Assembly (NCBI GenBank): GCA_024640255.1
Contig: JAHEFI010000001.1
Coordinates: 62,001 to 126,000 of the forward strand
DNA: 64,000 nt
Origin: Bacteroidota bacterium
GTDB lineage: Bacteria > Bacteroidota > Bacteroidia > Chitinophagales > Chitinophagaceae
Direction of reading: 5' to 3'
Part shown: piece by piece, positions 10,263 through 64,000 of the stretch
How the letters are laid out: the number at the start of each line of letters is the position of its first letter
Position numbering within the stretch: the first letter of the stretch is position 1
Notes under the pieces: generated by a model
What the model was told of the DNA's origin: nothing
The model's database searches: none
The model's input: the letters and a program-made list of their open reading frames with translations, nothing else
Translations under genes and position numbers: made by a program

Positions 10263-11273
10263 TTAAGATTTAGCTTCTTCAACAGCTGTAGCTATTTTAG
10301 CTCTGATTTTTGCTTCTATTTCATTAGCCATTTCAGGATTGTCGTGTAAAAGTTGTTTTACTGTTTCTCTTCCTTGTCCTAATTTATTAGAGTCATAACT
10401 AAACCAAGATCCACTCTTTTGAATAATATCTAATTCTACACCCATATCGATAATTTCACCAATCTTACTAATACCTTCTCCGAAAATAATTTCAAATTCT
10501 GCTGCTCTAAATGGAGGAGCCACTTTATTTTTAACCACTTTCACCTTCACTCTATTTCCTATCGCTTCATCACCATCTTTAATCTGAGTCATTCTTCTAA
10601 TATCTAATCTTACAGATGCATAAAATTTAAGTGCATTACCACCTGTTGTTGTTTCTGGGTTACCAAACATAACACCAATTTTTTCTCTTAATTGGTTGAT
10701 GAAAATACAGATAGTGCCTGTTTTATTGATTGTTGCAGTTAATTTTCTTAAAGCTTGAGACATTAATCTTGCGTGTAATCCCATTTTAGAATCACCCATT
10801 TCTCCTTCTAATTCACTCTTTGGTACTAATGCTGCAACAGAGTCAATAACTAATACATCTACTGCACCTGATAATATTAATCTATCAGCAATTTCTAAAG
10901 CTTGCTCACCATAATCTGGTTGAGAGATTAATAAACTATCTACATCCACACCTAATTTTTTTGCATATGCACTATCAAATGCATGTTCAGCATCTATAAT
11001 TGCACAGATACCACCTTTCTTTTGTGCTTCTGCAATGGCATGTATAGCAACCGTTGTTTTACCAGAAGATTCTGGTCCATATATTTCAATAATTCTTCCC
11101 TTTGGTAGACCACCAATTCCTAACGCAGTGTCTAAGCCAATTGATCCAGTTGAAATTACTTCTTGTGGTTCTTGGCTTCTTTCATTCATCATCATTACAC
11201 TTCCTTTACCATAATCTTTATCGATTTTATCCATGGTTAATTTCAGTGCCTTTAGTTTTTCTGCGTTACTCAT
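10263..11273 (-). CDS. recA: Recombinase A
   Basis: RecA forms filaments on single-stranded DNA for homologous recombination and stimulates LexA-type autocleavage. The 336 residues are slightly short because the acidic C-terminal tail is reduced. Walker A 'GPESSGKT' is at 66-73, '[19 protein letters not shown]' carries Walker B and start of the L1 region, and '[20 protein letters not shown]' is the L2/DNA-binding segment. It faces the AT-rich origin-like region. No LexA/SOS-box-like palindrome was recognised before it. Confidence 0.98.
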
Positions 11274-12039
11274 AGTTTGTCGTTTTATTAGTTTCTTGTA
11301 TAATTTATGTGAAGGTATGGATAAATTGTTAATAAACTAAAATATTTAGTAAAATTTTACTAATTAGATTAGTTAATATGGTTAAAAAAGGTCTTTATTT
11401 TATATAATTTATTGATTTTCAATTATTTAATTTTTAGTATTTATTTTAGTAATTTTTTTATTTTGCTAAATTATAGAAGGATTTTTATTTAAAATTGGGT
11501 ATTTATACCCTGTTTTTGATAGAATTTAAAAGTAGTTGAATTTATTAGAGAAAACAATTTTGTCTCTTTTTGATCATTGTGGATTTCTATTGTAGTATTC
11601 TTAAATAATACATTTATATAAACAAACTAATATTATTACCCCTGTTAATATCTTAATATCTTATTTATTCACAATTCTTTTTTTAAAATCTATTAGTTAT
11701 TTACAATTTTCTGTTATCTCTAAGATCTAATAGGAATAAGGATTTGATTGATTTATATTAAAACAGATTTTATAACTAATTTGTTTAGTAATTTAATAGT
11801 AAACAGATTATTCACTGTTAATTAACGGTACTAATTCGGTTCATTTTTACCCAGAATGAGTATTTTTTAAAATGTGAGTCAAACTTATTCTTTTTAAATC
11901 CACATTTTTTAACACCAAAACCGGGGTTATCAACGATTTTTTAATTTATCCACTGACTCCTTGTGTATTTTAAAATACGTCAACGAATAACAAATACTAA
12001 ATAGAATACATTAAATTTGCCATCCTATAATTATAGTAT
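11274..12039. other. Candidate chromosomal replication origin (oriC)
   Basis: A 766-base region with no credible gene, between divergent recA and ppiD-like genes and much richer in A+T than its surroundings. It contains at least seven 9-mers with 7-8 matches to the DnaA box TTATCCACA. Three have 8/9: 11316-11324 (minus), 11665-11673 (plus, TTATTCACA) and 11946-11954 (plus). Four have 7/9: 11578-11586 (minus), 11808-11816, 11896-11904 and 11927-11935 (all plus). Long A/T-only runs around 11390-11470 could be the unwinding element. Two parS sites lie about 4.1 kb away. The boxes are read directly; the origin function is inferred. Confidence 0.5.
11896..11954 (+). promoter_or_regulatory. Cluster of three co-oriented DnaA-box-like 9-mers
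   Basis: Three 9-mers in the same orientation: AAATCCACA (11896-11904), TTATCAACG (11927-11935) and TTATCCACT (11946-11954), with starts 31 and 19 bases apart. Such closely spaced, same-strand boxes next to A/T-rich DNA are typical of DnaA-loading arrays. Matches to the E. coli consensus are 7, 7 and 8 of 9. Confidence 0.45.
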
Positions 12040-14124
12040 ATGTCAATTATTCAGAACATTAGAGAAAGAGGAACTTGGATCATTTTTGGAATTATTGCTA
12101 TTGCATTAATAGCTTTTATATTACAAGATGGTATTGGTAGAAATAAAAGCAGAGGTAATATTTCTACAATTGCAACGGTAAATGGAGACCCAATTGATAA
12201 ATTAGCTTTTGATGAGAAAGTTGATTTACAGGTTCAAAATTATGCATCACAAGGTGTTAAAAGAGAACAAGTAATTGGATACCAATTTAATCAAGAAGTT
12301 GACGCTTTATTATATAAGCAAGAAATTGCTAAGTTGGGTTTAATAGTAGGTACAAAAGAAATCTCAGATGTTTTATTTGGAAACGAATCTCCATTTAAAA
12401 ATGAATTTACAGATAGAACTACTGGTGAGTTTAAAGTGAATGATGCGAAGAACGCTATTGCTCAATTAAAAAAGAGTAAGAATGTTGAGCAAATTAAACA
12501 ATTAGAAAAATTTTATATAGAACCTTCTATTGAAAATAGAGTTAGAAGTAAATACCAGTCTTTATTAATTAAGGGAATCCAATTACCAAAATGGTTGGCA
12601 GATAAATCTATTGCTGAAGCAAATAGTATCGCTAGTATTTCATATGTTGGTGTTTCTTATAATAGTGTATCTGATAGTGCTGTTAAAGTTAGCAACGATG
12701 ATATCGCTGCTTATATTAAAGATCATGCACCAGCTTATCAAAATGAAGAAGCTTCTAGAAGCATTAGTTATGTGGGATTTAGTGCAGCTCCTTCTACAGC
12801 AGACTCGGTTGCAATTTTAAATCAATTGATTGCTTTTAAAGATGAATTTAAAACAACTACGAACGAAGCATCTTTTTTGAACAAAGCCGGAACAGATATC
12901 CCTTATTATAATTCATTTGTAAGCAAGAAAACATTACAAATCCCTAATAAAGATTCAGTATTAGCGGTTGGTGTTGGAAACACATTCGGTCCATATATTG
13001 ATGGCAAAAACTTTACCATTGCTAAAGTGGTAGGGGTTAAATCTTGGCCAGACAGCGCAAGCGTTAGACATATCTTAATTGCTACAGTTAATCCACAAAA
13101 TGGCCAACAGGTTAGAGATGACAGCACTGCAAAGAAGTTAATTGATAGTATTAAAAATGCGATTGCTGGTGGTGCAAGTTTTGAATCAATGGTTGAGAAA
13201 TATTCTGATGATGGTGGATCTAAGGCTACTGGTGGTAAATATGAAATGTTCCCACAAGCACAAATGGCTCCAGCGTTCAACGACTTTTCTTTCGATAATA
13301 CTGTTGGTACTAAGGGCGTAGTAAAAACCGAATTTGGATACCATTTCATAGAAGTGCTTAAACAAACCCCAAGGGGTCCGGCTTATAAAATAGCTTATTT
13401 ATCTAAGGCGGTTTTACCAAGCAACGAAACATTAAATACAGCAGCTACTGCAGCGGCTCAGTTTGCATCTAATGCAAAAGATCCTAAAGCATTTACTGCA
13501 GCTGCAGTAAAAGAGAAAAAAGAAGTTTTCCCTGCTGCTAATATTAAAGCGAATGATAATGAAATCCCTGGAATTGGTGAATCTAGAACATTAGTTCGTT
13601 GGGTTTTTGAAAATGATATTAATGATGTATCTGAACCATTTGAAGTGGGAGATAATTATATAGTAGCGTTAATCAATGCTGAAGAAAAGAAAGGATTAAT
13701 GAGTGTTGAAACCGCAAAACCAACAGTAGAAAATATTATCAAGGACCAGAAAAAAGCAGAAATTATCAAGAAGACCTTCAAGGGTAACAGTTTAGATGCT
13801 TATGCTGCAGCTGGAAAAGTTTCTATAGCAAGAGCTGATAGTATCAATTTTAATTACTCCATGGTTCCTGGTTTAGGTAACGAGCCTAAAATCGTAGGGG
13901 CTGCTTTCAATAAATCTTTATTGAATAAAGTAAGTGACCCTTTTGCTGGTAATTCTGGAGTTTTTGTAATTTCTGTAAATAATATTGGAGCTGTTCAATC
14001 TCAACAAGATCCTACATTGTTTAAAGATGAATTATTAAACAGAACCAGATCTATATTCTTTAGATCTTCAGTTGGTTTAAGAAAAGCCGCTAAAATTGAA
14101 GATAATCGTTTTAAGATTTATTAG
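12040..14124 (+). CDS. PpiD-like peptidyl-prolyl cis-trans isomerase (SurA N-terminal domain)
   Basis: A 694-residue envelope folding factor. An N-terminal membrane anchor (about 14-31, 'WIIFGIIAIALIAFILQ') is followed by a SurA-N-like chaperone region (about 40-180). A parvulin domain spans about residues 338-435, with 'SVRHILIA', 'ASFESMVEKYSDD', 'GGKYEMF' and 'EFGYHFIEVL'. A long C-terminal region probably adds a second, degenerate chaperone segment. This layout matches the PpiD/SurA-like isomerases of Bacteroidota, which assist folding of exported proteins at the periplasmic face of the inner membrane. TAAATTTG at 12012-12019 is a possible -7 element. A strong terminator follows the gene. 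Confidence 0.88.
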   Translation: MSIIQNIRERGTWIIFGIIAIALIAFILQDGIGRNKSRGNISTIATVNGDPIDKLAFDEKVDLQVQNYASQGVKREQVIGYQFNQEVDALLYKQEIAKLGLIVGTKEISDVLFGNESPFKNEFTDRTTGEFKVNDAKNAIAQLKKSKNVEQIKQLEKFYIEPSIENRVRSKYQSLLIKGIQLPKWLADKSIAEANSIASISYVGVSYNSVSDSAVKVSNDDIAAYIKDHAPAYQNEEASRSISYVGFSAAPSTADSVAILNQLIAFKDEFKTTTNEASFLNKAGTDIPYYNSFVSKKTLQIPNKDSVLAVGVGNTFGPYIDGKNFTIAKVVGVKSWPDSASVRHILIATVNPQNGQQVRDDSTAKKLIDSIKNAIAGGASFESMVEKYSDDGGSKATGGKYEMFPQAQMAPAFNDFSFDNTVGTKGVVKTEFGYHFIEVLKQTPRGPAYKIAYLSKAVLPSNETLNTAATAAAQFASNAKDPKAFTAAAVKEKKEVFPAANIKANDNEIPGIGESRTLVRWVFENDINDVSEPFEVGDNYIVALINAEEKKGLMSVETAKPTVENIIKDQKKAEIIKKTFKGNSLDAYAAAGKVSIARADSINFNYSMVPGLGNEPKIVGAAFNKSLLNKVSDPFAGNSGVFVISVNNIGAVQSQQDPTLFKDELLNRTRSIFFRSSVGLRKAAKIEDNRFKIY

Positions 14125-16061: not shown

Positions 16062-16077
16062 TGTTCCACGTGGAACA
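16062..16077. other. parS site 1 (ParB-binding palindrome)
   Basis: A perfect 16-base palindrome, TGTTCCACGTGGAACA, matching the general parS pattern TGTTNCACGTGNAACA. ParB nucleates here, spreads, loads SMC and with ParA segregates the origin region. It lies two bases after the ybeY stop. Confidence 0.9.
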
Positions 16078-16107: not shown

Positions 16108-16123
16108 TGTTCCACGTGGAACA
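16108..16123. other. parS site 2 (ParB-binding palindrome)
   Basis: A second perfect copy of TGTTCCACGTGGAACA, extended to an 18-base palindrome by flanking C and G. It is 46 bases from the first copy, centre to centre, and about 37 bases before mnmG. Two copies within 62 bases of intergenic DNA is strong evidence for a real partition locus. Confidence 0.9.
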
Positions 16124-16159: not shown

Positions 16160-18028
16160 ATGTTTCCTAAATACAATATAATAGTGGTAGGCGCCGGGCA
16201 TGCGGGTTGTGAAGCGGCAGCGGCAGCGGCAAATATGGGCAGTAAAGTGTTATTGGTAACAATGAACATGCAAACTATCGCCCAGATGAGCTGTAATCCT
16301 GCTATGGGAGGAATTGCCAAGGGACAGATTGTAAGGGAGATAGATGCCATGGGTGGATATAGTGGTATTGTATCAGATCTAAGTACTATTCAGTTTAGAA
16401 TGTTGAATAAGAGTAAGGGACCCGCTATGTGGAGTCCTAGAACTCAAAACGACCGCCATTTATTTGCTGCGAAGTGGAGAGAATTATTAGAACAAACGCC
16501 TAATGTAGATTTTTACCAGGATTCTGTGAATGAATTAATCATTAAGAACGGGAAAGCCTGTGGGGTAAAGACCAGCTTGGGTCATTTAATTGAATCTGAT
16601 GCAGTGGTTATTACCAGCGGAACCTTCCTAAATGGTATTATGCATATTGGGGAGAAACAAATTGGAGGTGGAAGAGTGGCCGAAAAAGCAGCAACTGGAA
16701 TTACCGAGCAATTGGTTTCTTTTGGAATGGAGTCAGATAGATTAAAAACAGGCACTCCTCCAAGAGTAGATGGAAGAAGTTTGGATTATTCTAAGATGGA
16801 AGAGCAGAAAGGTGATGAAGAAGTGGTGGGCTTTTCTTATTTAGATATACCAAGAGTAAAGCCAGAAGACCAGAGATCTTGCTTTATTACTTATACTGAT
16901 AATATTGTACACGATATATTAAAGACGGGTTTTGATAGAAGCCCTATGTATGCGGGTAGAATTGAGGGTGTTGGTCCTAGATATTGTCCAAGCATTGAAG
17001 ATAAGATCAATCGTTTCGCTGATAGAGAAAGACATCAGTTATTTGTGGAGCCAGAAGGATGGAATACTGTGGAGATCTATGTAAATGGATTTAGCACCAG
17101 TTTGCCAGAAGAAGTACAATACGAAGCACTTCGTAGAGTTCCTGGTTTTGAGCATGCTAGAATGTTTAGACCGGGTTATGCTATAGAATATGATTTCTTC
17201 CAACCCACTCAATTAAAATATACTTTAGAAACCAAGGCCATAGAAAATTTATTTTTCGCTGGACAAATTAATGGTACTACTGGATATGAGGAAGCGGCTT
17301 GTCAAGGATTGATGGCTGGAATGAATGCACACTTAAAAATTAATCATAAAGAAGCATTGATCTTACAAAGAAGCGATGCTTATATTGGTGTATTGATTGA
17401 TGATTTAATTGGAAAAGGAACGAACGAGCCTTATAGAATGTTTACTTCTAGAGCAGAATTTAGAACATTGCTAAGACAGGATAATGCAGATTTAAGATTA
17501 ACCGAACTAAGCCACAAGCTAGGACTGGCAAGCGATACAAGAATGCGACGCGTTGAAGAGAAACAAAAAAATGTTGCAGAGATTCGTCAAATATTAAATG
17601 CGCATTCTATTGAACCAGATGAAATAAATGCTTTTTTAACAGAGATAGAATCTGCTCCATTGGTTGAAAAACAAAAGGCTGCTAAGTTGGTTTTGCGTCC
17701 TAATATTAGTTTGCAACAAATATTAAATAACAGTACTGCGCTTCAAACAAAGATTGCTCATCAAGAAGTGGAGTTTATTGAGCAAGCAGAAATTCAAGTA
17801 AAGTACGAAAGGTATATAGAGAAAGAAAAAGAGATTGTTGATAGAATGGCCACTTTAGAAAATCAATTAATTCCAGACAATTTTGATTACGATAAGGTTT
17901 CAGCGCTTTCTATTGAAGCCCTACAAAAATTCAAAAAGATCAGACCTCTTACCCTAGGCCAAGCCAGCAGAATCAGCGGCGTGAACCCAAGCGATATCCA
18001 GATTTTAATGGTGTACATGGGCAGGTAA
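16160..18028 (+). CDS. mnmG: tRNA uridine-5-carboxymethylaminomethyl modification enzyme MnmG
   Basis: MnmG (GidA) works with MnmE to install the cmnm5 group at wobble uridine 34 of certain tRNAs, using FAD and methylene-tetrahydrofolate. The 622-residue product has normal length. The N-terminal FAD fold is 'VVGAGHAGCEAAAAAANMG'. 'CNPAMGGIAKGQIVREIDAMGG', 'GTFLNGIMHIG', 'LKTGTPPRVDGRS' and 'FFAGQINGTTGYEEAACQGL' follow, ending in the helical MnmE-binding domain. In many bacteria mnmG lies beside oriC, which fits the nearby parS sites. TATCTTTG (16145-16152) is a likely -7 element. Confidence 0.97.
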   Translation: MFPKYNIIVVGAGHAGCEAAAAAANMGSKVLLVTMNMQTIAQMSCNPAMGGIAKGQIVREIDAMGGYSGIVSDLSTIQFRMLNKSKGPAMWSPRTQNDRHLFAAKWRELLEQTPNVDFYQDSVNELIIKNGKACGVKTSLGHLIESDAVVITSGTFLNGIMHIGEKQIGGGRVAEKAATGITEQLVSFGMESDRLKTGTPPRVDGRSLDYSKMEEQKGDEEVVGFSYLDIPRVKPEDQRSCFITYTDNIVHDILKTGFDRSPMYAGRIEGVGPRYCPSIEDKINRFADRERHQLFVEPEGWNTVEIYVNGFSTSLPEEVQYEALRRVPGFEHARMFRPGYAIEYDFFQPTQLKYTLETKAIENLFFAGQINGTTGYEEAACQGLMAGMNAHLKINHKEALILQRSDAYIGVLIDDLIGKGTNEPYRMFTSRAEFRTLLRQDNADLRLTELSHKLGLASDTRMRRVEEKQKNVAEIRQILNAHSIEPDEINAFLTEIESAPLVEKQKAAKLVLRPNISLQQILNNSTALQTKIAHQEVEFIEQAEIQVKYERYIEKEKEIVDRMATLENQLIPDNFDYDKVSALSIEALQKFKKIRPLTLGQASRISGVNPSDIQILMVYMGR

Positions 18029-21162: not shown

Positions 21163-22470
21163 ATGCAAAAGAAATATTCTAACATATTATTAGCTTCTCT
21201 TGCATTGTTAAGTATAACAGCAAGAGCACAGGAAACAGTTTATCCTGCTAAAGCACAAAAAGGCGTAACCGTAATTACACACGCTACAGTACACGTAGGA
21301 AACGGAACAGTGTTAAACGACGCTTCTGTAAGTTTTGAAAACGGAAAAATCACTGCTGTGGGTACTATTACACCAGCGGCCGGAGCTACCGTAATTGATG
21401 CAACAGGAAAACATGTTTATCCAGGTTTTATTTTACCAAGTTCTGATTTGGGTTTAAGAGAAATTAGTTCTGGTGTAAGAGGTAGCAATGATTATTTTGA
21501 AATTGGCGAGAACAATGCCAATGTAAGATCTATTGTTGCATACAATACAGACTCTAAAAATATTGGAGTTTTAAGAGAGAATGGTATTTTATTAGCGGGT
21601 GTTGCACCACAGGGTGAATTAATCGAAGGTAGTTCTAGTGTTGTTCAATTAGACGCATGGAATTTTGAAGATGCTGCTTATAAAATGGACAACGGTATCT
21701 ATATTAATATGCCAAGCTTAATGGCAAGAAGAGGTCGTGGTGGAATTATGGCAAGAGTGCCTGGAGCAGATCCTGCAAAACAAGCTCAAGACAAAATAGA
21801 AACCATTAAAACCTTCTTCACCGAAGCAAAAGCTTATTATCAAGAAAAAACACATACAGCGAATAATTTAAAATTTGAAGCAGTACGTGGATTATTTGAT
21901 GGTACACAAAAATTATTTGTACGCGCTCAAGAAGTAAAGCAAATTTTATTAGCAGTGGATTTAGCTAAAAGTTTTGGTTTCAAATTAGTAGTAGTGGGTG
22001 CTTCAGAATCTTTTCAAATTGCTTCTTTCTTAGCAGAAAATAATGTGCAAGTTATTTTAGATAGCGAACATAGTTTACCTGCTACAGAAGACGATGATGT
22101 AGATCAACCTTACAAAACACCAGCAGCTTTACAAAAAGCGGGAGTGGTTTTTGCATTGAATGATATTCATGATCAAAGCCGTTTTAGAAACCTAGCATTT
22201 AACGCTGGAACAGCTGCTACTTATGGCTTAGACAAAGAGCAAGCATTATCTGCCATTACCTTAAATACAGCAAAAGTATTGGGTATAGATGCAAGTACTG
22301 GTTCTTTGGAAGTGGGTAAAGACGCTAATATCTTAATTGCTAATGGAGACGCATTAGACATGAGAGGTAATGTATTTACCAAAGCATTTATTCAAGGACG
22401 CGATGTTTCTTTGGACAACAAACAAAGACAATTATACGAGCGTTACAAATACAAATACGGTATCCAATAA
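21163..22470 (+). CDS. Exported amidohydrolase-like protein lacking the H-x-H metal motif
   Basis: A 435-residue protein with a signal peptide (about 1-22) that resembles the N-terminal half of the gene before it. It keeps the composite amidohydrolase ends: 'ITHATVHVGNGTVLNDASVSFENGKITAVG' at the start and 'LNTAKVLGIDASTGSLEVGKDANILIANGD' near the end. Where active enzymes read PG-x-ID-x-H-x-H it has 'YPGFILPSSDLGL', without histidines. It is probably a catalytically inactive or scaffold partner of the 1009-residue protein, encoded three bases upstream. A strong terminator closes the pair. Confidence 0.8.
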   Translation: MQKKYSNILLASLALLSITARAQETVYPAKAQKGVTVITHATVHVGNGTVLNDASVSFENGKITAVGTITPAAGATVIDATGKHVYPGFILPSSDLGLREISSGVRGSNDYFEIGENNANVRSIVAYNTDSKNIGVLRENGILLAGVAPQGELIEGSSSVVQLDAWNFEDAAYKMDNGIYINMPSLMARRGRGGIMARVPGADPAKQAQDKIETIKTFFTEAKAYYQEKTHTANNLKFEAVRGLFDGTQKLFVRAQEVKQILLAVDLAKSFGFKLVVVGASESFQIASFLAENNVQVILDSEHSLPATEDDDVDQPYKTPAALQKAGVVFALNDIHDQSRFRNLAFNAGTAATYGLDKEQALSAITLNTAKVLGIDASTGSLEVGKDANILIANGDALDMRGNVFTKAFIQGRDVSLDNKQRQLYERYKYKYGIQ

Positions 22471-22493
22471 TTGGTTATTAAATAGTCAATATA

Positions 22494-22529
22494 AAGCACC
22501 TCATCAAAATCGATGGGGTGCTTTTTTTT
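22494..22529 (+). terminator. Rho-independent terminator after the amidohydrolase pair
   Basis: A 12-base-pair stem (AAGCACCTCATC with GATGGGGTGCTT, one G-U pair), a 6-base loop and eight T residues. It sits 24 bases after the stop and just before polA. Because it precedes the ATG at 22544, it also argues against an earlier polA start. Confidence 0.92.
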
Positions 22530-22543
22530 GTTACCTTAGCAAC

Positions 22544-25459
22544 ATGTCTAAGAAACTATATCTACTCGACGCGCTTGCGCTTATCTATAGAGCTTATTAT
22601 GCATTAATTCGTAATCCAAGAATTACCAGCACAGGTATTAATACCAATGCACAATTTGGATTTACCAATACCCTCTTGGAAATTATTAAAAAAGAAAATC
22701 CATCGCATATTGCCGTTTGTTTCGATACGCACGCCCCTACAGAAAGACATACAGATTTTACCGATTATAAAGCCAATAGAGAAGAAGCCCCAGAAGATTT
22801 ATTAAGTTCTCTACCACACATTAAAGCGATTATTGAAGGTTTCAATATTCCTGTTGTAGAGTGTGATGGATACGAGGCCGATGACGTGATTGGAACCCTG
22901 GCTTGGCAGGCAGCAGACATGGGTTATGAAGTATATATGGTAACACCAGACAAGGATTATGGTCAATTATTGGTGAAACCCAATGTATATATGTGGAAGC
23001 CGCCAGCTTTTGGCAATGAGAGAGAAATTTTAGACGCCGAGAAAATCAAAGCCAAATGGGATATTGCCAGAGTAGATCAGGTGATAGATATGTTGGGCTT
23101 AATGGGCGATGCTGCCGATAATATTCCGGGCATTCCGGGGGTAGGAGAAAAAACGGCTGCCAAATTATTAAAAGAGTACGATACACTAGAGGGTGTACTA
23201 GCGAATGCAGATAAGATTAAAGGCGCCATGGGAGAGAAAGTAAGAGCAGGAAAAGAATCTGCGATTATGAGTAAAAAGCTAGCCACTATTATTACCAATG
23301 TGCCCGTGCAGTTTCATGAAGAAGATTATAAGTTAACCGAAAAAAATATTCCAGCACTTACAGAGATATTTAATTTACTAGAATTTAAAACCCTTGGTAA
23401 AAGAATATTAGGTGGAGACTTTGAAGAGAAGACGCGAACAGCGTCTGATGAAAGAAAGAAAATTGATACCGAGGACAAGCAGGTGGATTTATTTGGCAAT
23501 GAAGTAAAACCAGCCAAAGAAAAAACAATCAAAACAAAAACCATTGTGTTGGATTCCGAAAAAGGAACACAAGAAGTTTTGGAGCCAAATGATGAAAACG
23601 ATGAAGAAGAAGCTCCAGTATTAGTAGTGAATAAAAATATTGCTAATACACCACACCAATATGAGGCAGTGGTGGGCGATGCAGCAATTCAAGATTTAGT
23701 CAAAACACTATTAACTCAAAAAGAAATTTGTATTGATACCGAAACCACAGGCATTGATGCTAACAATGTGGAGTTGGTAGGCCTAAGTTTTTCTTTTAAA
23801 GAACATACAGGTTTTTATGTACCAGTGGCGAATGATGGAGAAGGCAAAGATGGTGCAAAACATATTTTGTCTTTATTCAAAAAATTATTTGATCAAGAAG
23901 ATATTACCTGGATCGGACAAAACCTTAAATACGATTTCTTGGTATTAAAATGGTACGGTGTTCAACTAAAAGGAAAAACATTTGATACCATGTTGGCCCA
24001 TTATGTGATTGAGCCAGAAGGCAGACGCAGCATGGATTTGCTAAGTGGACAGTACTTAGGTTATGAGCCAGTATCTATCGAAAGCATCATTGGTAAGAAA
24101 GGAAAAAACCAAGGTAGCATGCGTGATGCTGAATTGGAACAAATCAAAGAATATGCAGCAGAAGATGCAGACATTACTTTACAATTAAAACATTGTTTAG
24201 CTCCTTTGATTTTGAAAAAAGAAGTTAGCAAAGTATTTAATGAAGTTGAAAATCCTTTGATGCCAGTTTTAGTGGATATGGAATTTGAGGGTGTAAAAGT
24301 AGATACCGATTTTTTAAATGAATATAGCAAGGTATTAGAAGTAGAAGCAAAAGAAAGCGAAGAGAAAGTATATGCGGCAGCTGGAGTGCGTTTTAATTTA
24401 GCTTCTCCAAAACAATTGGGAGAGGTTTTGTTTGAAGTGATGAAACTGGATGATAAGGCGAAGAAAACAAAAACAGGTCAGTACGCAACCGGTGAAGATG
24501 TTTTGCAAAAAATGGCTGCGAAACATAAAATAGTGGATGACATTTTAAATTTCAGAGAACTTACTAAATTAAAATCAACTTATGTAGATGCTATTCCTGA
24601 ATTGATTAATCCAAGAACAGGTCGCATTCATACTAGCTATGCACAAGCTGTTGCTGTAACTGGTAGATTAAGTAGCACCAATCCCAATTTGCAAAACATT
24701 CCAGTAAGAACTGATAGAGGTAGAGAAATTAGAAAAGCATTTATTCCAAGAGACCCTTCTAGAATTTTAGTGAGCGCCGATTATTCTCAAATTGAATTAA
24801 GGGTAGTTGCTGCAATTAGCGGTGATCCTAATATGTGTGAAGCATTTAAATTAGGCAAGGATATTCATACTGCCACTGCAGCTAAAGTATATGGCGTAGA
24901 TGAAGCAGAGGTGACCAAAGAAATGCGTTACAAAGCTAAGAGTGTAAACTTTGGTATTATATATGGTCAAGGAGCTTTTGGTTTGGCAGAGAACCTGGGT
25001 ATTTCTAGAACAGAAGCCAAAGAGATAATTGATAACTATAAAAAAGAGTTCCCCAATATTCAGAAATACATGGACCAACAAATTAATCAAGCCAAAGAGT
25101 TGGGTTATGTAGAAACATTGATGGGAAGAAAGCGCTGGTTAAGAGATATCAATAGTTCCAATTTCACGGTGCGTGGATTTGCAGAGCGAAACGCCATCAA
25201 CTCTCCTATTCAAGGTTCCGCAGCAGACATGATTAAATTGGCAATGATTAAAATTCATCATGCCATGAAAGAAAAAACTTGGGAATCTAAAATGATTTTA
25301 CAAGTACACGATGAATTGATCTTTGATGCTACAGAAAAAGAATTACCAGCTTTAAAAGAATTAATACTTTCTTGTATGACTAGTGCTATGGAACTTCCAA
25401 ACGGGGTCCCCGTAGAAGCAGAACTAGGAACAGGAAAAAATTGGCTTGAAGCGCATTAA
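22544..25459 (+). CDS. polA: DNA polymerase I
   Basis: Pol I fills gaps and removes RNA primers in repair and lagging-strand synthesis. The product is 971 residues from the ATG at 22544 ('MSKKLYLLDALALIYRAYYA'). The open frame reaches further up but only through the preceding terminator. Three domains are present. The 5'-3' exonuclease (1-300) has 'CDGYEADDVIGTLA' and 'GLMGDAADNIPGIPGVGEKTA'. The 3'-5' exonuclease looks intact, with 'IDTETTG' near 397. The polymerase has motif A 'SADYSQIELR' near 744, 'RYKAKSVNFGIIYGQG' near 794 and 'QVHDELIF' near 920. An acidic linker (about 300-370) follows the first domain. Confidence 0.97.
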   Translation: MSKKLYLLDALALIYRAYYALIRNPRITSTGINTNAQFGFTNTLLEIIKKENPSHIAVCFDTHAPTERHTDFTDYKANREEAPEDLLSSLPHIKAIIEGFNIPVVECDGYEADDVIGTLAWQAADMGYEVYMVTPDKDYGQLLVKPNVYMWKPPAFGNEREILDAEKIKAKWDIARVDQVIDMLGLMGDAADNIPGIPGVGEKTAAKLLKEYDTLEGVLANADKIKGAMGEKVRAGKESAIMSKKLATIITNVPVQFHEEDYKLTEKNIPALTEIFNLLEFKTLGKRILGGDFEEKTRTASDERKKIDTEDKQVDLFGNEVKPAKEKTIKTKTIVLDSEKGTQEVLEPNDENDEEEAPVLVVNKNIANTPHQYEAVVGDAAIQDLVKTLLTQKEICIDTETTGIDANNVELVGLSFSFKEHTGFYVPVANDGEGKDGAKHILSLFKKLFDQEDITWIGQNLKYDFLVLKWYGVQLKGKTFDTMLAHYVIEPEGRRSMDLLSGQYLGYEPVSIESIIGKKGKNQGSMRDAELEQIKEYAAEDADITLQLKHCLAPLILKKEVSKVFNEVENPLMPVLVDMEFEGVKVDTDFLNEYSKVLEVEAKESEEKVYAAAGVRFNLASPKQLGEVLFEVMKLDDKAKKTKTGQYATGEDVLQKMAAKHKIVDDILNFRELTKLKSTYVDAIPELINPRTGRIHTSYAQAVAVTGRLSSTNPNLQNIPVRTDRGREIRKAFIPRDPSRILVSADYSQIELRVVAAISGDPNMCEAFKLGKDIHTATAAKVYGVDEAEVTKEMRYKAKSVNFGIIYGQGAFGLAENLGISRTEAKEIIDNYKKEFPNIQKYMDQQINQAKELGYVETLMGRKRWLRDINSSNFTVRGFAERNAINSPIQGSAADMIKLAMIKIHHAMKEKTWESKMILQVHDELIFDATEKELPALKELILSCMTSAMELPNGVPVEAELGTGKNWLEAH

Positions 25460-40005: not shown

Positions 40006-41172
40006 ATGAAAAAAATATTTAAATATCTATTGCTTTTGTTAATTCCATTTTCTTGCAAAGAGAAATATATATCACCTGTGGTTTCACCCGCCACCGGCTA
40101 TTTGGTAGTAGAAGGTGTAATTAATAGTGGACCAGGTGAAACCAATATTACCTTATCTAGAACCACACCATTAAATAAACAAACTGTTTTATTTGAAACA
40201 GGCGCTACGGTGCTAGTTGAAGGAGAAGACAATAGCAGATTTTTATTAAAAGAAGTTAGTTCTGGAAAGTATAGCACTGCTAACATGGCCTTATCAAATA
40301 CCAAAAAATATAGATTATCCATAGCTACAAAAGATGGTAAAAAATACCAATCAGATTTTTCTTCTGTTAATTATAATCCACCAATTGATAGTGTAAACTG
40401 GAAAAGACAAGGAAGAGACGTGCAATTATATGTAAATACACATGATCCTAATAATAATACCAAATATTATCAATGGGAATATGTAGAAACATGGGAGCTA
40501 CACACTTACTATCTATCCACATTAAAATATAAGGAAGTTACCAATAGTAGAGGTGTTACTACATACAGTGCTGTGTATAATGATTCAAGTAGTTTTGGGC
40601 CAGATTTGACAAAATATTTTTGCTGGAGAACAGAGCCGTCTACTACAATTTTTACTGGCACAAGTTCTAATTTATCAAGTGATGTAATTAATCTTCCAAT
40701 GATATCCATTCCCGCAGATTCCTGGAAGTTAAATATCTTATATTCAGTAAATACCAAACAATATAGCTTGAGTAAGGGTAGGTATGAATTTTTACAAAGA
40801 ATGAAAAAAAATACAGAAAGTACAGGTTCTGTTTTTGATGCTCAACCTTCAGAATTAAATAGTAATATTCATTGTGTAAGTAATCCATTAGAACCTGTTA
40901 TAGGCTATATTGATATATGTCCAATACAAGAGAAAAGAATTTATATTAATAGAAAATCTTTACCTGATTGGAATTATAGCCAAAGCTGTTCAGAAATTGA
41001 AGTCCCTAATAATTCAGATAGTATAGCTATTAAAGCCCTGTTTTTACTACCCACTTATCCAAAAACAGACCCTATGACCGGAAGGATAATTTCTTTTTTT
41101 GCTGCACCTCCTGAGTGTGTTGATTGTAAACTAAGGGGATCTAGTATAAAACCATCTTTTTGGCCTAATTAA
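40006..41172 (+). CDS. DUF4249 family lipoprotein
   Basis: A 388-residue predicted lipoprotein (Cys17 after 'LIPFS'). It matches DUF4249, a family regularly found after TonB receptors in Bacteroidota: 'LVVEGVINSGPGETNITLSRT', 'TGATVLVEGED', 'YRLSIATKDGKKYQSDF' and a Cys-containing end ('CSEIEVPNNSD', 'PPECVDCKLRGSSIKPSFW'). It probably sits on the outer membrane and helps the receptor bind or hand over its cargo, as SusD does for SusC, although it is not a SusD homologue. It starts five bases after the receptor. Confidence 0.85.
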   Translation: MKKIFKYLLLLLIPFSCKEKYISPVVSPATGYLVVEGVINSGPGETNITLSRTTPLNKQTVLFETGATVLVEGEDNSRFLLKEVSSGKYSTANMALSNTKKYRLSIATKDGKKYQSDFSSVNYNPPIDSVNWKRQGRDVQLYVNTHDPNNNTKYYQWEYVETWELHTYYLSTLKYKEVTNSRGVTTYSAVYNDSSSFGPDLTKYFCWRTEPSTTIFTGTSSNLSSDVINLPMISIPADSWKLNILYSVNTKQYSLSKGRYEFLQRMKKNTESTGSVFDAQPSELNSNIHCVSNPLEPVIGYIDICPIQEKRIYINRKSLPDWNYSQSCSEIEVPNNSDSIAIKALFLLPTYPKTDPMTGRIISFFAAPPECVDCKLRGSSIKPSFWPN

Positions 41173-41182
41173 ATTGCTTTTT

Positions 41183-43543
41183 ATGAAAAGACATATATAC
41201 ATAATAGTAGCAATTAATTTATTTCTATGTAGTAATAATGTAACTGCTCAATCAAAAGAAATTACTGAATTAAAAAACACCATTGAACAGTATACTGTAA
41301 ACGCATTACCAGAGAAAATTTATCTACATACTGACAAATCTGTTTATTTAAACAATGAAGTGTGTTGGTTTAAGATTTATACTGTTGATGGATTTTTTCA
41401 TGAACCACTAAGCTTAAATAAAATTGCCTACGTTGAATTGTTGGATGTGAATAATCAACCAATAGCGCAAGAAAAAATTGAATTAAAAGACGCAATTGAT
41501 CAAGGTTCTATTCAATTGCCCGTTAATTTATCAACAGGAAAATACACTTTAGTGGCTTATACCAATTGGATGAAAAACTTTGATCCTCGTTTTTTCTTTT
41601 CAAAATCCATTTCTATTATTAATACGCAGTATGTTGCTGATCTTGCTCCAATAAAAAAGACCAGCTACAATATTTCTATTTTTCCAGAAAGTGGTTCATT
41701 ACTAGCTGGTATTAAAAACAAGATTGGATTTTCTGTGACAAATAACTTCGGTCAAGGTATAATTTCTAATGGTTGGATTATTAGAAATAATAAGGATACC
41801 ATTAGTCAGGTAGCCACTATGATCAATGGTCTTGGTTCTTATTCACTTATGATTGATAAGGAAGGTGAATACAAAATGATTTTTTTGCAATCAGATACTC
41901 TTATTGAAAAACAATTTCCAAAAGCTCAGTCAACTGGAGCTGTTATACAGGTGACTACAGATCAAGACTCGGTTCTTTCAACTATTTATACCAAATCTTC
42001 TGCTGTCAATAGTGGCTATTTAGTTATACATAATAGAGGTATTGTAAAAAGAGTTGTTCAAGTATATTTTTCAAATGAGCAAGCAACTATTAAAACGGCA
42101 CTAAATAATTTAGGTGATGGAATAAATGTATTTAGCTATTTTGATTTAGATAAAAACCCAATTGCAGAAAGACTTTATTTTAAATATCCTGAAGAGAGTG
42201 AATCAAAAATAGCTCTCGAAACTAATTATTTTAAAAAACGTCAAAAAATTAATCTAACACTACAGGCAACTAGTTCAAATATGTACAATGCCTCTATGGC
42301 AGTATATAAAATTGATTCTTTGCAAAATATAGATGAAGTAAATATTGAAAATTATATTTGGCTTAGCTCGGATCTATCTTCAAAAGTTGAACATCCAGAT
42401 ATATATTTTAATAAATTAAATCCTAGTAGGGCATTGTTAATGGATGATTTGATGTTAACAAAAGGCTGGAGAAGATTTTTAATGAACGATATTCTTCATG
42501 GTAAAGCACAGCCCTTATTATCTTTTTTACCTGAAATGGGAGGCTCATTGATTGGCGGTAAACTTACCAATGCTAATACGCAAGCTAAACTTGGAGAAAC
42601 TGCTGCCTATATTTCTTCTCCTTCGATTAACACCACCTTTACTTCAACTATTAGCGATAGCATAGGCGGGTTAAGATTTCAACTTAATAATTTTAAAAAC
42701 GATGGCCAGATTATAGTTCAAGCTGCTAATTTGGATAATTCGCATAATAAAATTGACATCGAAAATCCTTTTGTGGCAAAAAATTATTTTCTTTCATATT
42801 CGGATCCGATTTTTGTAAAAACACTTCCAAAATCAAATCTAGCTTTGTTGCACAGAAATGTTCAGGTTCAAAATTTATATACTCCACAGTTTACCAATCA
42901 AATTCAAGCTTCGAAAAAAGACACTAATGCATTTTATTATAAACCCGATAGAACCTACTTTTTGGACGACTATGCAAGATTTACAACATTGGAAGAAGTG
43001 ATTAGAGAATATGTAACTCCTGTAAGTTTAGTTAAGAAAAAAGGGAAGTATCAATTGTATGTTTATGATGAGGCCTATAAAAAATTCTTTGAATCAAATC
43101 CATTAGTTCTGTTAGATGGTGTTGTTATTCAGGACATTGATAAATTCTTAGAATACGATCCTTTAAAGATTAGAAAGTTAGAAGTTGTTTCTAGAACCTA
43201 TTATTTAGGCAATATTGCATATAGTGGTATAATTAATTTCACTACTTATAAAGGCAAGCTTGAAGCCTTTGAGATAGATCCAAAAGCAGTTGTTTTAAAC
43301 TATAGTGGCCTCCAAGACAGAAGAATCTTTGCGGCTCCTGTTTATGAAACACAAGCTCAAATTGACAGTCGAATACCCGATTTTAGACAATTATTATGTT
43401 GGAACCCCAATGTAAAAATTGATAAAAAGCTTTCCACTTCATTCTATAGTTCCGATGTTTCCGGTAAATACTATATAAGTATTCAAGGGATAGACAAGAA
43501 GGGAAAAATATTGAATCAATCTTCGATTTTTGAGGTAAAATAA
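41183..43543 (+). CDS. Exported MG2-like / plug-like domain protein
   Basis: A 786-residue exported protein; the ATG at 41183 gives a clean signal peptide, while a TTG three codons earlier does not look needed. Near 45-130 it has a macroglobulin MG2-like domain ('EKIYLHTDKSVYLNNEVCWFKI', 'LSTGKYTLVAYTNWM'). Near 640-670 comes a TonB-plug-like segment ('NPLVLLDGVVIQDI', 'IRKLEVVSRTYY'). Proteins of this build are common beside TonB receptors in Bacteroidota, but their function is not established. It is the last gene of the receptor cluster; the convergent ORF6N gene abuts it with no gap. Confidence 0.78.
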   Translation: MKRHIYIIVAINLFLCSNNVTAQSKEITELKNTIEQYTVNALPEKIYLHTDKSVYLNNEVCWFKIYTVDGFFHEPLSLNKIAYVELLDVNNQPIAQEKIELKDAIDQGSIQLPVNLSTGKYTLVAYTNWMKNFDPRFFFSKSISIINTQYVADLAPIKKTSYNISIFPESGSLLAGIKNKIGFSVTNNFGQGIISNGWIIRNNKDTISQVATMINGLGSYSLMIDKEGEYKMIFLQSDTLIEKQFPKAQSTGAVIQVTTDQDSVLSTIYTKSSAVNSGYLVIHNRGIVKRVVQVYFSNEQATIKTALNNLGDGINVFSYFDLDKNPIAERLYFKYPEESESKIALETNYFKKRQKINLTLQATSSNMYNASMAVYKIDSLQNIDEVNIENYIWLSSDLSSKVEHPDIYFNKLNPSRALLMDDLMLTKGWRRFLMNDILHGKAQPLLSFLPEMGGSLIGGKLTNANTQAKLGETAAYISSPSINTTFTSTISDSIGGLRFQLNNFKNDGQIIVQAANLDNSHNKIDIENPFVAKNYFLSYSDPIFVKTLPKSNLALLHRNVQVQNLYTPQFTNQIQASKKDTNAFYYKPDRTYFLDDYARFTTLEEVIREYVTPVSLVKKKGKYQLYVYDEAYKKFFESNPLVLLDGVVIQDIDKFLEYDPLKIRKLEVVSRTYYLGNIAYSGIINFTTYKGKLEAFEIDPKAVVLNYSGLQDRRIFAAPVYETQAQIDSRIPDFRQLLCWNPNVKIDKKLSTSFYSSDVSGKYYISIQGIDKKGKILNQSSIFEVK

Positions 43544-54510: not shown

Positions 54511-54620
54511 ATGTCTTTATTTACCTTATGAAATTAATCAATATTCTAAGTAAAACAAGGTATTTATACGCTATTTGATACTGACTAAAATATATAATAT
54601 AGTTGAGATAAAATAAAAAG

Positions 54621-54635
54621 TTCCCAAATTGGGAA
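54621..54635. promoter_or_regulatory. Probable HigA operator palindrome
   Basis: TTCCCAAATTGGGAA, a perfect 7+7 palindrome around one base, lies 28 bases before the higB start in the 153-base gap after the divergent serine hydrolase gene. Antitoxins of this type repress their own operon by binding such sites. The rest of the gap shows nothing else recognisable. Confidence 0.65.
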
Positions 54636-54663
54636 ATTTAAGTTAATTTTCAAATATATTTCA

Positions 54664-54957
54664 ATGAGAGTGATCGCAAAAAGAACCATACGAAATTATA
54701 TTGCCCAACACCCAGATTGTGAACAAGCTCTTTTAACTTGGCATAAAGAAGCTAAAGCAGCAAAATGGAAATCACCTTCTCATATTAAATTAAAATATCC
54801 CTCTGCAAGTATTATCCATAATAACAGGGTGGTATTTAATCTTAAAGGCAATCATTATAGGTTAGTGGTAAAAATTAATTATTCATTATTTATTGTATGG
54901 ATAAAGTTTATTGGCACACACGCTCAATATGATAAAATCGATGTAAGTAAAATTTAA
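54664..54957 (+). CDS. higB: HigB-family toxin (mRNA interferase)
   Basis: A 97-residue RelE-superfamily toxin of the HigB_toxin type, which cuts mRNA on the ribosome. It shows 'WHKEAKAAKWKSPSHIKLKYPSASIIHNNRVVFNLKGNHYRLVVKINY' in family order and ends 'FIGTHAQYDKIDVSKI'. His89 and Tyr92 of 'THAQYDKID' lie in the usual C-terminal active-site segment. The toxin-first order is typical of higBA. Confidence 0.92.
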   Translation: MRVIAKRTIRNYIAQHPDCEQALLTWHKEAKAAKWKSPSHIKLKYPSASIIHNNRVVFNLKGNHYRLVVKINYSLFIVWIKFIGTHAQYDKIDVSKI

Positions 54958-54963
54958 AATTAT

Positions 54964-60789: not shown

Positions 60790-63700
60790 ATGAAACAATT
60801 ATCTCGTTTTGCATTAGTCCTTGTAGTAAGTATCGCATGTCAATCTGTATTGGCACAAGTAAAAGACAGCACTTTAAAAGGAATGTCTTGGAGAAATATA
60901 GGTCCAAACAGAGGAGGCCGTTCTTTGGGAATTGCAGGAAGTAGTAAAAGAAAATTAGAATATTATTTTGGTGCAGTAGGTGGAGGTTTATGGAAAACCA
61001 CAGACGGTGGTTTAAACTGGAAGCCAGTGACTGATGGTCAATTGACTAGTTCTAGTGTGGGTGCTGTTGCAGTGTCTGAATCTAATCCAGATATTGTTTA
61101 CATAGGAACAGGTGAAACAGAGTTTAGAGGAAATATCATGCAAGGTGATGGTGTGTATAAATCTACTGATGCAGGAAAGACTTGGAAAAATATTGGATTA
61201 AAAAATTCACAATCCATTTCTCGTGTTCGAATTCATCCAACCAATCCAGATATTGTTTATGTTTCTGTATTAGGTCATGCATTTGGTCCTAATGAAGAAA
61301 GAGGTGTTTTCAAAACAACTGATGGTGGTAAAACATGGAACAAAGTTTTATATGTAAATGAAAAAGCTGGTGCAGAAGATTTGGTGATTGATCAACAAAA
61401 TCCAGATATCATTTATGCAAGTATATGGGAAGTGTATCGCACACCTTATAAAATGTGGGCTGATGTGGGTACTTCTGCTTTATATAAATCTACCGACGGT
61501 GGTACTACTTGGAAAGTGATTTCTAAAAATCCAGGAATGCCTGCAGTCGTTGGAAAGGTAGGCGTAGCAGTGTCTCCAGCGGATGGTAACAGAGTGTGGG
61601 CGATTGTTGAATCACCAGAGGGAGGTTTATATCGTTCTGATGATGGAGGTGCAAATTGGAAATTAGTGAACAACGAAAGAAAATTACGCCAACGCGCTTT
61701 TTATTATTCTAGAATTGTTGCAGATCCAAAAGATAAAAACACAGTGTATGGTTTGAATGTAAATTTTTATAAATCTACAGATGGTGGAGTGAGTTTTAAA
61801 ACTGAAATAAAAGTACCTCATGGTGATAATCATGATTTATGGATTGATCCAACTGACCCAACACGTTTAGCAAGTTCTAATGATGGTGGTGGTACGGTAT
61901 CTGTGAATGGTGGTTTATCTTGGACAGATGAAGATTTTCCAACGGCACAATTATATCATATCACTGTAACTAAAGATTTTCCATATCAAGTAGCAGGTGC
62001 TCAGCAAGACAACACTACGATTGCATTGCCTAGTGAAGATTATAGACATAGAGCTATAAGAACAAATTCTACTAAACCTGGAATGGGTTTTGCCTATGAA
62101 GTAGGTGGTGGTGAAAGTGGATATATCACACAGGATCCAAAGAACCCAGATATTTTTTATGCAGGTAGTCAAGGTGCCTTATTAACTAGAATCAATAGAA
62201 TGACTGGTCAGGTTAGAGATGTACAAGTATATCCAAGATTTTTCTCTGGTGAAGAAGCGAAAACCTTACCTGAAAGATGGCAATGGACTTATCCAATTGT
62301 TTTCTCTCCAGTAGATCCAAATGTTTTATTTACTTGTTCTCAGCATGTTTGGAAAACTACTAACGAAGGCCAAAGCTGGGAGCAGATTAGCCCAGACTTA
62401 ACGTATAATGATACAGCCACATTAGGTGTAAGCGGTGGAGTGATTACAAGAGACATGAATGGTCCAGAAATTTATGGTACTGTTTTTGCATTAGCGCCTT
62501 CTTACCATGATGTAAATATTATTTGGGCTGGATCTGATGATGGATTAGTTCATATTACAAAAGATGGCGGAAAGCATTGGGAGAATATCACACCAAAAGA
62601 TATGCCTAAGAATACTAGAGTAAGTATTATTGAAGCATCTCATTTTAATGCAGGTACTGCTTATATCGCTGCAAAGCGTTATCAAATGGATGATCGCACA
62701 CCTTATATTTGGAAGACGAATGATTTTGGAAAAACATGGACTAAAATAATTTCAGGTATTCGCGCGGATGATTATGTACATGCTGTTAGAGAAGATATTA
62801 CCCGCGCGGGTTTATTATATGCAGGTACAGAACATGGTATCTGGGTTTCTTATAATGATGGTGGTAATTGGGAATCTTTAAGTTTAAACTTACCGGATGT
62901 ACAAGTGTCTGATGTTCAAGTAACCGATAAAGATGTAGTGATAGGAACACATGGAAGATCTATGTATGTATTAGATGATGTTTCTCCAGTAAGAACCAAA
63001 GACGCTGGAATTCAAGCTGGGCTTCACTTATTTAAACCATACTATGCAGTAAGAACAGTTCAAAAAGCAGTATTCCAATATTATTTAGATAGCACTATCA
63101 AAGATTTAAAAATTGAAATCTTTGATGCAAAAAATAATTTGGTAAATACTTTTGTAGGAGCATTACCAAAAACTAAAAAAGAAAATGGAGAAGCAGACGA
63201 AGATGAGGATGATAGAAAACCACAACCTCCAACAATTAAAAATGGTTTAAATAAATTCGAATGGGATTTAAAATATCCTGCTGCAACTAATTTTAAAGGA
63301 ATGATTTTATGGAGTGCACCAGTGTATGCAGGACCAACAGCAGTTCCAGGTAATTATAAAGTATCTATTACTGCTGGTGGAAAAACAGTGAGTGAAAATT
63401 TTGAAATCAAAATGGATCCTAGAGTGAATGATGTTACTCTTGCTGACATGCAAGAGAAATTTAATTTATCAATTCAAATTAGAGATGAGGTAAGTAAAGC
63501 AAATGAAGCAGTGATTAAAATTCGTGCCATTAAAGAAAAAATAAACGAAGAAGCAAAAACAAAAAACACCACTGTCTCTAAAGCGAATCAAGCATTGATA
63601 ACGGAGCTTTCTGCTATTGAGGAGAATCTTTATCAGGTGCGTAACCAAAGCTCTCAAGACCCATTAAACTTCCCTATTAAATTGAATAATAAACTAGCCT

Positions 63701-63846: not shown

Positions 63847-64000
63847 ATAAGGTAAAAACCCTACCTTTGATATATCATCAAGAAGCCTTTAGTGGCTGCC
63901 AACCGAGAGAGTCGAACTCCGCGGTGGTAAAATCGATGAGGACTTACTGTCAAAAGCAAACGTAATTTCCTTGTACATTTTTCTTGGTGTGAAATTTTAA
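63847..64000 (+). other. Terminal intergenic stretch with a short open segment of protein-like character
   Basis: After a TACCTTTG element (63862-63869) the DNA turns more G+C-rich than its surroundings. One frame, from just after a TAG at 63890-63892 to a TAA at 63998-64000, reads like the end of an outer-membrane protein ('RVELRGGKIDEDLLSKAN' and '...LYIFLGVKF', ending in Phe). It has no start codon. It could be a gene remnant, part of a structured RNA, or chance. I do not make a gene call. Confidence 0.25.

Follow-up and report, generated by a model that had tools for sequence, protein, structure and literature searches.

A conserved, predicted unwinding module marks a very probable chromosomal replication origin beside ppiD in a Chitinophagaceae-like bacterium

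Where does chromosome replication start in a Chitinophagaceae-like bacterium, and is a long A+T-rich gap between two divergent genes the place? The gap in question (11274–12039) separates recA (10263–11273, minus strand) from a gene for a ppiD/SurA-like peptidyl-prolyl isomerase (12040–14124, plus strand; referred to as ppiD), and was proposed as oriC in an initial annotation. The stretch of DNA analysed, referred to as the window, is 64,000 nucleotides long and corresponds to positions 62001–126000 of C7, a 452-kb contig in a draft genome (G000) of 2.19 Mb, 48 contigs and 86.6% completeness. The gap is A+T-rich and gene-free as described, with 158 G+C positions in 766 bp (20.6%); it is the window's largest space between open reading frames of at least 100 aa (the runner-up is 54511–54963), and the contig's G+C minimum, measured in 700-bp windows, falls on it. 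Judged from its sequence and that of its relatives, this gap is very probably the chromosomal oriC of the organism.

To the right of the gap the gene order is ppiD, DUF2480, nadD, ybeY, two parS-like sites (TGTTCCACGTGGAACA at both 16062–16077 and 16108–16123) and mnmG (16160–18028). The parS pair, which had been placed about 4 kb off, and the nearby mnmG are thus both present, and the distance from the gap to the parS sites is about 4.4 kb, a closeness expected of an origin. G067 likewise has parS between ybeY and mnmG. Elsewhere in the window, positions 63870–63967 match the SAM-I/IV riboswitch with a score over Rfam's gathering score, and the DNA polymerase I open reading frame (22370–25459) aligns with its family from residue 61 on only, so that it probably starts some 180 bases further downstream than listed.

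The seven DnaA-box-like 9-mers initially listed for the gap all exist, on the strands and with the mismatch counts given, and four further 7/9 matches bring the number to 11. Measured against 500 dinucleotide shuffles, the gap contains three boxes at ≤1 mismatch compared with a mean of 0.23 (a count reached in 0.2% of shuffles) and 11 at ≤2 mismatches compared with a mean of 3.4 (reached by none of the 500), and so is, as expected of an origin, an A+T-rich intergenic region with DnaA boxes above chance. Across the whole window the excess at ≤1 mismatch is only mild (32 boxes vs 23.5 expected, with 4 of 100 shuffles reaching 32), and two protein-coding stretches of the contig are richer, with four such boxes per 766 bp compared with three in the gap. 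The suggestion that the boxes exceed chance therefore stands for the gap, but boxes alone do not identify the origin, and counting them was dropped as sole proof of oriC. Within the window, 766-bp intervals with four DnaA-box-like 9-mers (≤1 mismatch) are located at 40301–41767, inside coding sequence.

The initial annotation had also asked whether the boxes are conserved in related genomes, and they are, both among close relatives and, as part of a longer module, family-wide. The close-relative set comprises 30 loci (L024–L053), and all 27 with upstream sequence contain a TTATCCACN box 94–132 bp before ppiD. recA is located upstream in 17 of the 30, where the gap is 740–837 bp long with 20–23.5% G+C. 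When the window and 21 of these loci are aligned (22 sequences), several near-invariant blocks stand out: TTTAGTA/TTACTAAT near recA, TAAAAGTAGTT, the core at 11599–11675, TTATNCACTGTTAATTAACGG and, before ppiD, a pair of boxes. In L035, L046 and L051, recA and nadA are missing from the 10 kb upstream and another large gene is found there; the ppiD-side elements are still kept, and part of the TTTAGTA/TTACTAAT block is absent. Just downstream of ppiD-DUF2480, the mnmG-polA block is inverted relative to the window in L026, L029, L035 and L046, which is a rearrangement beside the proposed origin.

Starting from the recA side, the gap contains a DnaA-box-like TTATCCATA (11316–11324, minus strand), with the same site in L024, L025 and L027, and a TTATCCCTA-like site aligned in its place in many other close-relative loci. 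This is followed by a conserved A+T-rich block with the words TTTAGTA, TTACTAA and TTAGTT (11333–11376), a possible unwinding or initiator site, by a conserved TTAAAAGTAGTTGA element (11526–11539) and by a DnaA-box-like AAATCCACA (11578–11586, minus strand) that is kept as ATGTGNAT on the plus strand. The core (11599–11675, plus strand) is predicted to be the unwinding module and is made up of a conserved A+T-rich centre, ATTTATATAAA (11612–11622), which may take part in opening; a DnaA-trio-like array, AAC TAA TAT TAT TAC (11625–11639, plus strand); a 3-nt spacer; a trio-side box, ATATTAACA (11643–11651, minus strand), with three mismatches to TTATCCACA; and a DnaA-box-like TTATTCACA (11665–11673, plus strand) that closes the module.

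Closer to ppiD is a second conserved element, TTATTCACTGTTAATTAACGG (11808–11828, plus strand), which consists of a box and GTTAATTAACGG and is the sole match at ≤2 mismatches within its own genome; CACTGTTAATTAA is present in several of nine distant upstream regions compared. Two further DnaA-box-like sequences are located on the plus strand, TTATCAACG (11927–11935), which is closer to TTATCCACN in many relatives, and TTATCCACT (11946–11954), for which relatives have the TTATCCACN box described above. Finally, TAAATTTG (12012–12019, plus strand) is a probable ppiD promoter element and fits the Bacteroidota promoter consensus TAnnTTTG.

Beyond the close relatives, conservation was followed in a family set of 147 genomes, the window's own included, 146 of which have a PpiD match. 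A common module was found upstream of ppiD in 23 of 29 family loci examined, while L068, L069, L072, L073, L076 (cut short) and L081 yielded no seed. In these loci the module includes a TAN-TAN-TAN-TAN array, followed by a mostly G+C-rich triplet and a reversed box such as TGTGGATAT, then often GGGATAA, and then TTATCCCCA or a relative. The first nhmmer profile was built from these 23 loci, of which 22 belong to other genera and one to a same-genus genome (G087, with 53% identity in PpiD), with none of the 30 close-relative loci among the seeds. On contig C7 its sole match at E<1 is window 11595–11674 (C7:73595–73674, E 2.8e-6), the next having E 2.6, and it matches all 21 close-relative loci given, 434–484 bp before ppiD.

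A calibrated model, R1, built from 22 of the 23 seed loci, has one match in the window's draft genome (C7:73599–73675, which is window 11599–11675; E 3.9e-6) and matches 120 of the 147 family genomes, with a single match in 110 and two in ten; without the 22 seed genomes, which are bound to match, the count is 98 of 125. The module is thus conserved in relatives and mostly single in the genome, as an origin is expected to be. R1 has no match in 27 of the 147, and in five of these (G017, G020, G032, G083 and G097) ppiD is located 3.9–25.8 kb from parS on the same contig, so that the module there is either too diverged for the model to detect or different. Outside the family R1 finds little: in a draw of 148 genomes from the phylum it matches 16, six from the same family and 10 from other families, and the weak matches L206 and L207, located inside genes, look like chance. 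The core TTATNNACTGTTAATTAACGG was rejected as a family marker, as at ≤2 mismatches it occurs in 14 of 147 genomes compared with 21 for a reversed-pattern control, and the only matches beside ppiD are the window's own and that of G096, indicating that it is clade-specific at this threshold.

The gap does lie in the recA-oriC-ppiD arrangement noted initially, but recA as its left neighbour is incidental. A divergent nadA (quinolinate synthase) adjoins the module in 28 of the 30 family loci that score best, and this neighbour is retained even with ppiD elsewhere (L182, L185, L186 and L188). The same-genus genome G087 has the order recA-nadA-module-ppiD. A search for nadA found none in the window's draft genome (86.6% complete) or among the 30 close-relative loci, many of which are short. 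This comparison of gene orders suggests that recA probably became the origin's neighbour through loss of nadA. De novo NAD synthesis from aspartate has probably been lost in G000 and L024–L053, unless the draft merely misses nadA.

As the gap is located between divergent genes and has a TAnnTTTG-like element before ppiD, it could be a mere regulatory region shared by recA and ppiD, in which the DnaA boxes serve as transcriptional control sites. The left neighbour, however, varies by lineage (recA, nadA or another gene), and the module is found near parS even with ppiD far off. Of 74 genomes having a parS site, the 48 with listed sites were compared for module, ppiD and parS; five have module and parS on different contigs and six have no module match. 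In all 37 genomes with both on one contig the module is 1.3–20.7 kb from parS (median 4.2 kb), some of the R1 matches used for these distances being weak (e.g. G089, E 5e-4, and G113, E 0.007). In nine of the 37 (G018, G022, G031, G061, G067, G069, G089, G116 and G143) ppiD is 10–526 kb from the module, and in two (G099 and G125) it is on another contig; in these eleven genomes, none of which is a seed genome, the module is still 1.3–9.9 kb from parS. A ppiD promoter element would move with ppiD, whereas the module stays near parS, and a purely regulatory role is highly unlikely. In typed module-ppiD pairs, 61 of 62 are spaced 300–900 bp apart, a figure that describes spacing and not frequency, as the pairs were chosen near ppiD.

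In contrast to parS, dnaA is distant. As the initial annotation stated, the gene is absent from the window; it is located on contig C34, and in all 14 genomes with dnaA and module on one contig (16 were searched and 14 were measurable) the two are about 0.41–3.0 Mb apart, with some genome lengths rounded. The gap thus does not fit the dnaA-linked type of origin.

The position of the cumulative GC skew minimum, proposed as a check for the complete genome, was determined for the 452-kb contig, where the raw minimum falls at window 11232, as predicted, but not the corrected one: strand correction is relevant because recA and ppiD are divergent, and once corrected for gene strand, the third-position skew reaches a broad minimum at about window 60.7 kb. 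Five genomes of relatives, finished or almost so, were sampled in 20-kb stretches, and at this coarse sampling the minimum is within about 0.2 Mb of the module in three of them. In G066 the lowest sample is 18 kb from ppiD and the best two-arm fit 0.03–0.19 Mb from the module; in G022 the corresponding values are 10 kb and 0–0.14 Mb; in G116 the best fit coincides with ppiD, which is about 75 kb from the module. Additional G116 samples switch sign around the module (negative to positive), apart from one negative value beside ppiD; this agrees with the module but does not distinguish it from ppiD, and the same attempt failed in G067, where the minimum lies between the two, about 0.2–0.34 Mb from each. 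In G141 the module is beside ppiD, yet the skew, which is weak, reaches its minimum about 1.9 Mb from there. GC skew is thus loosely supportive of the oriC reading and not decisive.

The strand-corrected minimum, about 49 kb from the gap, and the two contig stretches richer in boxes would also be compatible with a DnaA-titrating or DnaA-modulating site (datA-like or DARS-like), with the origin elsewhere within tens of kb. Both box-rich stretches are protein-coding, however, and the combination of a module that is single in 110 of 120 matching genomes and near parS in 37 of 37 with a trio-like array and an A+T-rich centre, which suit an opening site, leaves such a site only a slim chance. It is more improbable still that the gap is a former origin, whose sequence persists while replication starts elsewhere in this lineage. 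The trio-side box is indeed degenerate, with three mismatches in 14 of 22 clade rows, including the window, but the trios, spacing and outer boxes are kept in the clade, which a dead origin would not do, and the model has no second match in the genome (86.6% complete). The identification of the gap as oriC is strongly supported by the family-wide, usually single module and by its distance of at most 20.7 kb from parS in all 37 genomes.

How could such an origin open? In PMC8287927, the basal unwinding system (BUS) of Bacillus subtilis oriC and its predicted relatives is described as a DnaA-box separated by no more than 16 bp from three or more trios, which have a central A and the consensus 3'-GAT-5'; DnaA assembles on the trios, opening the duplex. 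The window's module similarly contains a trio array with a central A (five NAN trios, AAC TAA TAT TAT TAC), a short spacer of 3 nt and an adjacent box. It differs from the B. subtilis BUS, as described there, in that the trio-side box has three mismatches where at most two are allowed (in the best-scoring arrangement, eight of the 22 clade rows and 16 of the 22 family rows stay within this limit), and in that the trios of the window and family are mostly TAC and TAT (3'-CAT/TAT-5'), the two commonest triplets in both clade and family rows, and not 3'-GAT-5'. Despite these two departures, the module resembles a BUS in how it would work. A tentative possibility is that the DnaA of Chitinophagaceae reads a shifted single-strand code, with either a family-wide 3'-CAT/TAT-5' array or opposite-strand TAG/TAA trios of reversed polarity towards the box replacing 3'-GAT-5'. 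A weak R1 match from another Bacteroidota family (L202, G204:C5:439655–439725) has the trios TAG TAG TAG TAA TAG, separated by 4 nt from a perfect TTATCCACA box, and looks like a canonical unwinding module.

For the gap as oriC, the arrangement of elements suggests that DnaA, encoded elsewhere, would bind the double-stranded boxes at 11643–11673, 11808–11828 and 11927–11954, and would assemble from the trio-side box onto the strand carrying TAA-TAT-TAT-TAC (11625–11639). The A+T-rich DNA around ATTTATATAAA would presumably open, allowing the helicase to load, and forks would depart in both directions, with ParB at the two parS sites, about 4.4 kb away, likely segregating the copies.

An origin that is apart from dnaA and has mnmG nearby is reminiscent of the E. 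coli-type oriC, which is unlinked to dnaA and adjoins mnmG/gidA; compared by description and not by sequence, the two differ in their neighbours (nadA or recA, and ppiD) and in the presence of parS here. In Mariniflexile litorale, which belongs to the Bacteroidota but to a different family, dnaA is off the skew minimum and the Ori-Finder oriC adjoins mnmG according to the text of PMC11278836, although a figure legend there labels mnmG as ter; this predicted oriC is likewise dnaA-unlinked with mnmG near, so that the separation of dnaA and origin is not new for the phylum. The origin of Synechococcus lividus, far from dnaA and dnaN (DoriC 10.0, PMC6323995), is similarly a box cluster apart from dnaA, whereas the box consensus of the cyanobacteria named in the relevant part of that paper is TTTTCCACA, unlike in the window. 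For Cytophaga hutchinsonii the relevant part of PMC5288383 only lists plasmids marked oriC, and for Porphyromonas gingivalis that of PMC5771137 simply places oriC at dnaA. Among the open-access papers searched, none describes a Chitinophagaceae origin in its title or the opening of its abstract; predictions for finished family members may exist in DoriC, which collects predicted origins (PMC6323995), and no first report is therefore claimed.

For the Chitinophagaceae, an origin guess based on dnaA would err by at least 0.4 Mb. A compact conserved module would instead allow origins to be called from sequence across the family, including in drafts where skew helps little. The module also yields candidate oriC plasmids for cultured family members, and the natural trio variants across the family make the DnaA trio code testable.
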